A stretch of DNA of 33,876 nt from Prevotella sp. (GTDB lineage: Bacteria; Bacteroidota; Bacteroidia; Bacteroidales; Bacteroidaceae): positions 1-33,876 of the forward strand of contig JAFTFX010000032.1 in the NCBI GenBank assembly GCA_017458225.1, written 5' to 3'. Below are positions 22,303-33,705 of this stretch, in pieces. A program made the position numbers and the translations under genes. Numbering within the stretch: position 1 is the first letter of the stretch; each line of letters opens with the position of its first letter. Under the pieces are notes generated by a model. It made no database searches, had not been told where the DNA came from, and saw nothing but the letters and a program-made list of their open reading frames with translations.

Positions 22303-22328
22303 TTTTCTCTCATATCATCCTTCACACG

Positions 22329-22362
22329 CCCCTCCCTCACAGGGAGGGGGCGAGGGAGAGTC
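22329..22362 (-). repeat. REP-like palindrome B, ruvA-sprA spacer
   Basis: CCCCTCCCT-CAC-AGGGAGGGG (22329-22349) followed by the tail ending GGGAGAGTC. It matches copy F in gcvT at 31 of 34 positions. It occupies half of the 64-base spacer between ruvA and sprA. Confidence 0.85.
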
Positions 22363-22366
22363 TTTT

Positions 22367-27956: not shown

Positions 27957-29261
27957 TTATTGCTCGGCTGCCGACAACAATATTTCAGACAGTGTGGGGT
28001 GGATGTGCACCATGTTGCGCAACTGCTCCACGGTGGCGTTTAGCTGCATCAACACGCTGACTTCCTGCACTATATCGGCACTGTGGGCACCAAAGGCATG
28101 ACAGCCAAGAATGCGAGACCCTCCCCCATCCCCACCCTGTGAGGGAGAAGTGCTAAATAGCTTCAGCATGCCGTCGGTTTCGCCCATGGCCAGTGCCTTT
28201 CCATTGGCACGATGGAAGGCCTTGCGACACACGTAGTCCACACCCCGCGCCTTCAACTCGTCTTCGGTAGGACCGACGCAGGCGGCCTCGGGCGTGGTAA
28301 AGATGGCGGCAGGGATGTTTTTTAGTGAAGAATCGGCTACCGTTTCTCCACGACTCCTTACTATTTCATCTACCACCACTTTTGCCTGCCATTCGGCAGC
28401 ATGGGCCAGCATCTGCTTTCCATTCACATCGCCAATGGCATAAACGGAAGCCTCCCCCATCCCCTCCAAGGGAGAGGCGATGCACACACGGAAGTTTTCA
28501 TCAACGGGGACGGAACCGTCACGGTTGAGCGTGATGCCAAGAGCCTCCAGGTTCAACCCTTCGGTACGGGGCTTGCGACCCGTGGCCATCAGGATGACAT
28601 CGGCATCGATGTCGGCCAGCGACTGCACAGCGGTCTTCATTTTAAAAGTGATTCCCTGCCTTTCCAGTGTTTTACGCAGGCGCTTGGCAATGTCGCTGTC
28701 AAGGGCAGGCAGACATTCTTTCAGGTACTCTATCACCGTGACCTCCGAACCGAAGCGATTGAAGATGCTGGCAAACTCCATGCCGATGACACCAGCACCG
28801 ATGATGCATAGCTTCTTGGGACACTCGCGCAAGGCGAGCATGCCAGTGGAATCGACCACGCGAGGGTCTTCATGAATGCCGGGGATGGGCAGCCACTTCG
28901 TTTCAGAGCCAGTGGCAATGATGACATTAGTAGCTGCAATGCAGCCACACACAGGACAGGTGACCGTGTGGGCATCGACGAAGGAGGCTTTTCCGCGAAT
29001 GAGGGTGATGTTGGGGTGCGAGAGGATGCTCTCTACCCCACTGCGCAACTGCGCCACCACCTGTGGCATGCGTTCCACGGCCTCAGCAAAGGAAGCACTA
29101 TGCACGTAGGTCTTCGTGGGGATGCACCCTACGTTCAGACAGGTGCCACCCACCTCCGAGGCTTCGAATATGACGACTTTCAGTCCTGCCTTGGCTGCAA
29201 GTTCGGCAGCACGGTAGCCTCCAGGGCCTGCACCGATGATAATGAGATCAGATGTATTCAT
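27957..29261 (-). CDS. lpdA: Dihydrolipoyl dehydrogenase
   Basis: A 434-residue flavoprotein (E3/L-protein) that reoxidises dihydrolipoyl groups with NAD; here it would serve the glycine cleavage H-protein. Seen: FAD-binding IIGAGPGGYRAA (8-19), redox disulfide GGTCLNVGC (38-46), second nucleotide motif IIGAGVIGMEFA (about 154-165), IYAIGD-type FAD motif (VYAIGDVNGKQMLAHAA) and the C-terminal HIHPTLSE with catalytic His-Glu. Two palindromic elements are translated inside it: residues about 262-271 (ASPLEGMGEA) just before the AIGD motif, and 372-382 (TSPSQGGDGGG) in a surface loop before RILGCHAFG. Residues CPVCGC near 102 are also unusual. Catalytic residues are intact. It follows gcvPB by 30 bases. 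Confidence 0.95.
   Translation of the reverse strand: MNTSDLIIIGAGPGGYRAAELAAKAGLKVVIFEASEVGGTCLNVGCIPTKTYVHSASFAEAVERMPQVVAQLRSGVESILSHPNITLIRGKASFVDAHTVTCPVCGCIAATNVIIATGSETKWLPIPGIHEDPRVVDSTGMLALRECPKKLCIIGAGVIGMEFASIFNRFGSEVTVIEYLKECLPALDSDIAKRLRKTLERQGITFKMKTAVQSLADIDADVILMATGRKPRTEGLNLEALGITLNRDGSVPVDENFRVCIASPLEGMGEASVYAIGDVNGKQMLAHAAEWQAKVVVDEIVRSRGETVADSSLKNIPAAIFTTPEAACVGPTEDELKARGVDYVCRKAFHRANGKALAMGETDGMLKLFSTSPSQGGDGGGSRILGCHAFGAHSADIVQEVSVLMQLNATVEQLRNMVHIHPTLSEILLSAAEQ
28117..28148 (+). repeat. REP-like palindrome C, inside lpdA
   Basis: On the plus strand a tail GACCCTCCCCCATCC runs into a hairpin CACCCT-GTG-AGGG. The gene reads the opposite strand in frame as TSPSQGGDGGGS. 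Confidence 0.8.
28450..28478 (+). repeat. REP-like palindrome D, inside lpdA
   Basis: Shortened copy: tail GCCTCCCCCATC and hairpin CTCC-AAG-GGAG. The gene reads it antisense as ASPLEGMGEA. Confidence 0.7.
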
Positions 29262-29295
29262 AATTAGTAATTAGCAATGAGTAATGAGTAATTAT
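29261..29295. repeat. 7-bp tandem array (unit TAATTAG, 5 copies)
   Basis: Five contiguous 7-base units (two TAATTAG, then CAATGAG, TAATGAG, TAATTAT) fill the gcvPB-lpdA spacer and include the gcvPB stop codon at 29292-29294. Confidence 0.8.
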
Positions 29296-32436: not shown

Positions 32437-32451
32437 AGTATTGTTGTTTTA

Positions 32452-32507
32452 TTTCGACTTTTCGAGATTTCGATGTTTCGATATTACGATGTTTCAATGT
32501 TACGATT
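32452..32507. repeat. 8-bp tandem array (unit TTTCGATG, 7 copies)
   Basis: Seven contiguous 8-base units from 32452 to 32507, each within two or three changes of TTTCGATG. It fills the gcvT-gcvH spacer and runs into the last codons and stop of gcvT (32500-32502). Confidence 0.8.
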
Positions 32508-33705
32508 TCTTGTAATGCTTCTCGTAGAAGCGCTTCTTCACCACCACGCCGGGGAAGGTCTTCTTTCGAATCTGCACTTCCACCTCGGTGCCCAGCTTCG
32601 CATACTGGCTGTCGACGAGTGCCATGCAGACGCTCTTGTCGGTAGAGAGGGTGTGATAGCCGGTGGTCACCTCGCCGATGGGCTGTCCGCCTTTCAGCAC
32701 GGTGTAGCCATGACGGGGTATGGCCTTGTCGTGCAGTTCAATGCCGACAAGTTTGCGCTCTGTGCCCTCGGTCTTCTGCTTCAGCAGGGCTTCGCGCCCG
32801 ATGAACTCTGGCTTGTCGAACTTCACGAACATGGTCAAGCCTGCCATCACGGGCGAAATCTCGGCCGAGAGCTCATCGCCGTAGAGAGGCAGACCCACCT
32901 CGAAACGCAGTGTGTCGCGACAGCCCAGTCCGCAGGCCTGCACGCCGGCAGCCATCAGCTTGTCCCAACAATTATTAATGTACGCATGCGAGGCATAGAT
33001 CTCGAAGCCGTCCTCGCCGGTGTAGCCGGTACGGGAGATTATAAGGAGACTCTCCCCCGCCCCCTCCCTGCAAGGGAGGGGAGTAGACAGTTCTGTAGCT
33101 GCATTCTCGCCTTGAGGGTGTACACCCCCCTCCCTCACAGGGAGGGGCTGGGGGAGAGTCTTTGCCTCATAGAACTCCAACTCGCTGCACGCCAAGCCCA
33201 GCACCTGTTCCACGATCTCTTCGCTCTGCGGTCCCTGCACGGCCAGCTGGCCATAATAGTCGCTACGGTTCTGCAAGTCGATATCGAAGCCTTTGGCCTG
33301 CTCTTGCATCCAAGCCCAGTCCTTGTCGATATTGGCGGCATTGATGACGAGGAAGAAATCCTGCTCAGCCATTTTATAGACGAGCAGATCGTCGACAGTG
33401 CCACCATCTTCATAGCACATCATGCCGTAGAAGACTTTCCCTGCAGGGGCACCGGCCACGTCGTTGGTGAAGATGTGCTGCACATAGCGCTCGGCATCAC
33501 GGCCTTTCACCGTCACCTCGCCCATGTGGCTCACATCGAAAACGCCCACGCGCTCGCGCACAGCGGCATGCTCAGGGGCGATACCTGCATATTGCAGGGG
33601 CATCTCGAAGCCGCCGAACGACACCATCATAGCCTTCTGCTCCACGTGTTTCTCATAGAGGCACGTGCGCTTGTCCTTTGTTTCTTGTTCAGTCTTGATT
33701 CCCAT
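32500..33705 (-). CDS. gcvT: Glycine cleavage system T protein (aminomethyltransferase)
   Basis: A folate-dependent transferase that releases ammonia from the H-protein-bound aminomethyl group and forms methylene-tetrahydrofolate. Seen: FGGFEMPLQYAG (30-41), GVFDVSHMGEV (54-64), NAANIDKDW (122-130), ISRTGYTGEDGFEIY (223-237), GLGCRDTLRFEVGLPLYG and the C-terminal KKRFYEKH. At 401 residues it is about 40 longer than usual. The excess is residues 183-219, placed between FYEAK and LLIISRTGYTGEDG, and is encoded by two REP-like palindromes in opposite orientations plus 45 bases between them. All folate-site motifs remain. It is the first gene of the operon; the leader holds a palindrome at 33733-33742. 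Confidence 0.94.
   Translation of the reverse strand: MGIKTEQETKDKRTCLYEKHVEQKAMMVSFGGFEMPLQYAGIAPEHAAVRERVGVFDVSHMGEVTVKGRDAERYVQHIFTNDVAGAPAGKVFYGMMCYEDGGTVDDLLVYKMAEQDFFLVINAANIDKDWAWMQEQAKGFDIDLQNRSDYYGQLAVQGPQSEEIVEQVLGLACSELEFYEAKTLPQPLPVREGGVHPQGENAATELSTPLPCREGAGESLLIISRTGYTGEDGFEIYASHAYINNCWDKLMAAGVQACGLGCRDTLRFEVGLPLYGDELSAEISPVMAGLTMFVKFDKPEFIGREALLKQKTEGTERKLVGIELHDKAIPRHGYTVLKGGQPIGEVTTGYHTLSTDKSVCMALVDSQYAKLGTEVEVQIRKKTFPGVVVKKRFYEKHYKKS
33048..33081 (+). repeat. REP-like palindrome E, inside gcvT
   Basis: Tail GACTCTCCCCCGC and perfect hairpin CCCCTCCCT-GCA-AGGGAGGGG (33061-33081). Read antisense and in frame by gcvT as part of STPLPCREGAGESL. Opposite orientation to copy F. 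Confidence 0.9.
33127..33160 (-). repeat. REP-like palindrome F, inside gcvT
   Basis: Perfect hairpin CCCCTCCCT-CAC-AGGGAGGGG (33127-33147) plus the tail ending GGGGGAGAGTC. Translated as TLPQPLPVREGG. With copy E it makes an inverted pair 45 bases apart. Confidence 0.9.

Follow-up and report, generated by a model that had tools for sequence, protein, structure and literature searches.

Core enzymes of a Prevotella genome appear to carry extra loops derived from a probably mobile palindromic DNA family

The palindromic element in gcvT

The question raised by this locus is how a gene of core metabolism comes to hold a pair of inverted palindromes while staying readable from end to end. The window, i.e. 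the whole stretch of 33,876 nucleotides that was analysed, belongs to a draft Prevotella genome that is 74.7% complete. On its minus strand, at 32500-33705, it carries gcvT, identified by its open reading frame and by NCBIfam (PRK00389.1, E=1.7e-129); the gene encodes 401 aa and is interrupted in frame by a palindromic element of 115 bp (33047-33161). Two GC-rich arms of 43 nt in opposite orientation, 84% complementary, make up this element together with a spacer of 29 nt (33090-33118), comparable to those of several other compact copies. The arm located downstream in the gcvT sense (33047-33089, inner palindrome 33061-33081) encodes TPLPCREGAGESL and the upstream arm (33119-33161, inner palindrome 33127-33147) encodes KTLPQPLPVREGG; each contains its own palindrome of the form CCCCTCCC..GGGAGGGG. 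The pair of opposite palindromes described in the original prediction as 34-base units 45 bases apart is therefore real, the 34-base units being a tighter measurement of the 43-nt arms.

The reading frame of gcvT is open through the element. Matches to homologues mostly end at about residues 180-187 and restart at about 214-222. Since they mostly break near 184 and restart near 221, some 38 residues (about 183-220) are extra, in agreement with the in-frame addition first placed at 183-219. In an AlphaFold2 model of GcvT, built from 38 window and locus sequences, the mean pLDDT is 83.1 and residues 190-217 are below 50; this low-pLDDT segment lies between the strands 180-185 and 220-225, i.e. 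at the turn of a beta-hairpin. These low values may reflect disorder or, in part, the fact that no other aligned sequence has the insert. By Foldseek the model matches known T-proteins, the best being 1yx2. The element would thus have replaced and lengthened a beta-hairpin turn into a loop of about 38 residues that is probably disordered, and the catalysis by GcvT should stay largely intact. The insert is presumably translated and the loop tolerated.

As RNA the element is predicted to fold into a single long hairpin, as had been proposed for the mRNA, with an energy of -90.5 kcal/mol vs -53.84 (sd 3.8) for 200 shuffles (z = -9.65), none of which folds as stably (0/200). The foot of the hairpin reads AGTAG at one arm and GGTGTA at the other. 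Degenerate tandem octamers of the ATTTCGAN kind are also present nearby, between gcvT and gcvH (32451-32482).

A dispersed family and its arms inside genes

A search of the window's own genome for the element, suggested along with the original prediction, returned at least 100 matches to the 201-bp gcvT region; among those listed, the best outside the gcvT locus has 84% identity over 128 bp. The palindrome pattern CCCCTCCC..GGGAGGGG was found 54 times, against 0 for the reversed pattern used as a control. These matches, the counts of 54 vs 0 and the RNA fold lying below that of the shuffles all place the gcvT palindrome far from chance.

By a blast-based search with a consensus arm, applied to the stretches fetched around the matches and to the end of the window, we found 79 arms, a number of places found in these stretches rather than a full census. 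They form 50 clusters, 29 pairs and 21 single arms. The unit is the arm, roughly 38-48 nt long (consensus by eye: AGAC-YCWCCCCC..CCCCTCCCTGTGAGGGAGGGG-AGT), often in an inverted pair. Neighbouring arms less than 300 bp apart are in the order L..R in 29 cases vs R..L in one, which is the inverted order of REPINs, and the spacers within pairs measure 26-163 nt. Of the 79 arms, 21 have a tetranucleotide GTAG close to their AGT end and 7 have one close to the opposite foot, and CGTC is absent from all of them; a GTAG or CGTC tag at the hairpin foot, the mark of the REP class, is thus not a character of this family. The gcvT element has terminal inverted repeats, as MITEs have, and its 115 bp with inverted arms of 43 nt fall within the size of RPE-type palindromic units (about 100-150 bp). 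Within the window a single arm of the same family lies at 22326-22363, outside any homology-supported gene.

Of these 79 arms 46 lie in an open frame inside 23 genes supported by NCBIfam or Pfam, or 44 arms in 21 genes once the two N-terminal cases (AroK and ArgG), whose arms may be untranslated, are excluded; the remaining 33 lie outside the 23 genes, and frames there were tested in part. Judged by the arms found, the family thus departs from the mostly extragenic REP class and is present in frame in many unrelated protein genes, as RPEs are. The arm-bearing genes are those of GcvT, Lpd, DapF, CCA transferase, PyrG, LeuS, RNase R, DnaG, GltB (six arms), an HTH_18 regulator (four arms), Mfd, PheT, PorX, TopA, an IGHMBP2-family helicase, a DUF559-SpoU protein, an ABC ATPase, three glycoside hydrolases, a Fer4_20/Pyr_redox protein (GltD-like by our naming), AroK and ArgG. 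Coding DNA makes up most of a bacterial genome and, by reasoning from this coding share, genes probably still hold fewer arms per base than the DNA between them.

The second copy of the window in a gene is a single arm (28116-28153, peptide STSPSQGGDGGGS) in the gene of dihydrolipoyl dehydrogenase, whose open frame occupies 28002-29270 on the minus strand. A divergent arm-like insert is found in the same gene at 28447-28484 (peptide CIASPLEGMGEAS), and the PDB homologue 1dxl has gaps at both inserts. On contig C11 of this genome (arm at 41336), an arm lies between the DUF559 and SpoU methylase domains of one 326-aa frame (L051:9935-10912), and the repeat may have created this frame by fusing two genes.

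In consensus, the upstream arm can be read without a stop in one frame only. The downstream consensus has two open frames and a third which is open except for a stop in its tail. With frames read by eye, 16 of the 19 coding upstream arms use the sole open frame, and the 25 coding downstream arms are spread over three frames (18, 5 and 2 arms respectively). Frame use in genes thus matches the stop pattern of the arms, as survival under translation predicts. The encoded peptide is of a flexible Pro/Gly/charged kind (TLPQPLPVREGS...TPLPHREGLGES). Arms would persist in genes because of this stop-free frame in the upstream arm, and two or three in the downstream arm, encoding a flexible Pro/Gly peptide, and because selection would let survive only the in-frame copies located in permissive loops or linkers.

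We consider it very probable that the GcvT insert belongs to a family of REPIN/BIME-like palindromes that are non-autonomous and mobile and are tolerated in genes. Elements kept for their structure in RNA or DNA (an mRNA hairpin, an RNase or pausing site, a site for gyrase or a nucleoid protein), their coding being incidental, would account for the very stable hairpin predicted in gcvT, for the 33 arms outside homology-supported genes and for the fact that arms of one pair are more alike than arms across pairs (28.45 vs 26.96, sd 0.55, p = 0.006). But 21 of the 50 clusters are single arms, the positions in genes are not common to most relatives, and joint transposition predicts the likeness within pairs as well; we regard a structural role as unlikely.

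Comparison with relatives and spread in the genus

The inserts of the family were compared in protein alignments, each protein being aligned with 3 to 8 relatives. The arms of PheT are absent in 6/6 relatives. In DapF the upstream arm is absent in 5/6 and the downstream arm in 6/6, and in PyrG they are absent in 7/7 and 6/7 respectively. LeuS has no insert in 6/8 relatives, the other two holding other repeats, and RNase R none in 4/5, the remaining one holding another repeat. In these five proteins the orthologues without arms align on both sides of the insert; the bounds are less clear in TopA, CCA transferase, Mfd and DnaG because the loops of the relatives vary in length. For LeuS, the window's own genome, G023 and G034 carry two unrelated insert families at one loop. 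The same RNase R loop holds in G034 (L112) an insert rich in Ser/Pro/Leu, which is similar to the CTC-rich sequence found in long GcvT turns.

In GcvT, PheT and RNase R (for the latter from the protein lines alone, its DNA alignment being misplaced) the insert takes the place of a few native residues of the loop; this replacement counts against simple insertion, which predicts none. No target-site duplication is visible in the DNA alignments of gcvT, PheT and LeuS with relatives that are diverged. Mobility is presumed from the dispersal of the arms and from their presence or absence among relatives of different species. The likeness to BIMEs (paired inverted REPs) and that to the palindromic elements of Rickettsia, both drawn in the original prediction, are supported by the unit being dispersed through the genome, by its open-frame copies in many unrelated genes and by the insert being missing from most relatives.

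For GcvT itself, 106 of 110 loci were parsed (L038, L148, L193 and L196 were left out), giving 98 distinct proteins. The turn has 9-13 residues in 76 of them and 16-43 residues in 22; thus the alignment with relatives that had been called for finds a plain turn in most. An unrelated, non-repeated insert of the same length shared by all relatives, which would have spoken against a repeat, was not seen. By eye, the 22 long turns belong to the present family (2, the window and L202), to a PLSSPEG palindrome family (4), to an ELPS family (2) or to a CTC-rich low-complexity repeat (10), and 4 are not repeat-like. The CTC-rich sequence lengthens the turn in L138, L141, L144, L165, L199 and others. 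The turn is short in L132, which groups as sister row to the GcvT of the window with support 86/96.

On a GcvT tree built without the turn, whose bootstrap is not settled, the five long-turn classes, assigned by eye and with the 4 turns that are not repeat-like, need 8 changes for a minimum of 4 and a shuffled mean of 11.2; changes as few as 8 are reached in 3/200 shuffles. The classes with two rows need 2 changes each, and shuffles give the same. Long turns are thus partly clustered without having a single origin, since 8 lies between the minimum of 4 and the shuffled 11.2. Fully independent origins were considered and set aside on account of this partial clustering. In other Prevotellaceae, different repeat families are found in the GcvT turn on scattered branches.

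These turns bear on a further explanation, namely that the segment is a functional and selected loop of GcvT, regulatory or binding the H-protein, which is palindromic by chance. It is kept open and in frame, and the same turn is long in 22 of the 98 sequences, as such a loop might be. But similar peptides occur in some 20 unrelated proteins, 76 of the 98 GcvT have no long insert, the sequences of the long turns are unrelated to each other, and the model gives the segment no confident structure. We thus hold a selected loop to be very improbable, and a tolerated repeat remains our preferred origin for the segment.

Across the genus, the insert peptide was found in 30 of 150 sampled genomes, own genome included, and had no match in the other 120. 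For 27 of these 30 genomes, the frame that holds the best match runs without a stop for 268 aa or more, although a peptide search favours open frames, and 8 of 10 chosen long frames carrying the peptide have a Pfam family at E <= 1e-10. In a genome of 3.45 Mb assembled as a single contig, copies are present in the genes of a phosphoglycerate mutase and of an ABC-2 transporter; the family is thus not a quirk of one draft assembly. One of three stretches of G140 (L231) has no long frame with the motif.

A habit of coding common to the whole genus was also considered and is not displayed by G016, a single-contig genome with 32 palindromes. Among the 12 palindromes of its 8 chosen stretches, 10 fall in frames no longer than 106 aa, and the other 2 stand right where frames of 387 and 235 aa begin; because of these short frames or start positions, the 12 palindromes examined look extragenic.

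Misjoins driven by repeats during assembly or binning could in principle place palindromes in genes, the genome being a fragmentary draft and such repeats being able to disturb short-read assembly. The frame is nevertheless open in more than 20 genes across many contigs, a second assembly, G034, has inserts in DapF and PyrG at matching sites, and copies in genes also exist in the single-contig genome. An artefact is thus extremely improbable. The sequencing artefact named at the outset as a way in which the prediction could fail was not seen, and these observations make it unlikely.

Known palindromic systems, pair formation and the transposase

Palindromes in frame within genes are known from Rickettsia, where passages of two papers describe the RPEs (PMC10969869, PMC2229807). 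As described there, the elements of Rickettsia and Wolbachia are, like the present ones, small palindromic units in frame in unrelated protein genes. The present family differs from RPEs by its host (Bacteroidota) and by its arms, single or in inverted pairs, some of them around native coding sequence; the likeness is one of architecture and in-frame placement, drawn from published descriptions. Intragenic REPs of the GTAG/CGTC class are the subject of PMC3733652, the text of which, supplement aside, reports singles and dimers in ORFs including replication, repair and tRNA-synthetase genes, a prevalence of inverted dimers, different REPs near one recB site in two Xanthomonas species, and CGTC repeats from Bacteroidetes as well. 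In contrast to the REPs of that text, GTAG accompanies only 21 of the 79 present arms and CGTC none, and over half of the present arms are intragenic.

The REPINs of Pseudomonas, in the sections of PMC3116915 that concern them, are inverted REP doublets with a spacer and a predicted hairpin; they are extragenic and RAYT-associated, the doublet being proposed as the mobile unit and singlets as its remnants. In the present family, by contrast, many copies lie within coding frames, and the search for a cognate RAYT found none. The TnpA-REP subclass 2.4 described in part of PMC6006769 has REPs inside the transposase gene in Bacteroidetes, Cyanobacteria and other phyla, whereas the present arms are in core metabolic and information-processing genes. 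The present family works like RPEs and is built like REPINs, but has the GTAG tag of REPs beside a minority of its arms and the CGTC tag beside none. Palindromes in genes are already known, RPEs and intragenic REPs being nearest to the present case; we did not meet this family and its intensity in Prevotella in the literature. No title on palindromes inside Prevotella genes was found in a search that mostly excluded subscription journals and preprints, and the consulted part of a Porphyromonas paper (PMC5771137) holds no comparable palindromes in genes.

Earlier descriptions of selfish DNA in frame in core genes come mainly from Rickettsia and Wolbachia and from isolated cases of intragenic REPs. 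The present analysis finds it repeatedly in a gut genus, the peptide being carried by 30 of 150 sampled genomes, and the permissive loops concerned are lengthened by several repeat families unrelated to each other. Such cases amount to natural replicate experiments on the protein loops that tolerate insertion and to a source of new protein length; annotators and structure modellers are also warned that loops can be repeat-derived. Furthermore, the pairs that span native sequence could be used to examine how inverted REP pairs arise.

In the window's genome, PyrG carries both arms, upstream and downstream, with about 40 native residues between them; one of the G034 copies has the downstream arm only and the other has none. 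DapF likewise has both arms in the window's genome, one G034 copy having the upstream arm only and the other none. Some 40-50 native residues separate the arms of the PyrG and DapF pairs, and native sequence seems to lie between paired arms of GltB as well, from an unaligned reading. The two pyrG and two dapF copies of G034, with different inserts, are on contigs C19 and C35 (L225-L228); they may have arisen by duplication or come from two strains binned together, this bin being possibly mixed because each gene is found twice on different contigs.

Tentatively, and with the odds against it, we propose that the arm and not the pair inserts, and that inverted pairs are built stepwise inside genes. 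The second arm would land in inverted orientation at a distance of some 95-165 bp, so that native coding sequence stays between the two. The one-arm copies of PyrG and DapF in G034 would be intermediates, if the shared arms are of common descent. A mechanism such as fold-back template switching or hairpin-guided single-strand insertion would impose the orientation, and the likeness of arms within pairs would be its trace. If true, the origin of REPINs and BIMEs could be read from coding sequence.

The transposase would act in trans and could be RAYT/HUH-like or lost. That a RAYT moves the family in trans, which would make of it true REPINs, is a version of our preferred explanation rather than a contrary one; we hold it for possible, with the odds somewhat against it. 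In its favour are the inverted-doublet architecture and the occurrence of Y1 transposases (Pfam Y1_Tnp) in 26 of the 36 genomes searched. Moreover, G011 has a RAYT (L215:843-2200, contig C12; 80.8 vs the NCBIfam cut-off of 80) flanked on both sides by repeated palindrome pairs of another family, reading GTAG.

The window's genome itself, a draft 74.7% complete, has a single Y1 match, a protein of 432 aa (25 bits vs the Pfam cut-off of 23). This match also counts for a RAYT as a RAYT-like gene, but a divergent one (34.6 bits on the RAYT model vs a cut-off of 80), and neither CCCCTCCC nor GGGAGGGG is present in the 2.5-kb stretch that holds the gene and runs to the contig end 126 bp beyond it. 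The RAYT/IS200 link, for which a search was proposed with the original prediction, is thus not supported by this gene. G019, rich in palindromes (47), has no Y1 match, and the scarcity of GTAG beside the arms also weighs against a RAYT. In the five stretches where RAYT neighbourhoods were inspected (three of G016, one of G011 and one of the window's genome), neither candidate mover shows a link to the family, the own gene being divergent with no arms nearby and the G011 RAYT standing beside a different palindrome family. The RAYT-like protein of the window's genome (L216:1106-2401, contig C19) carries five 30-nt tandem repeats in its coding sequence.
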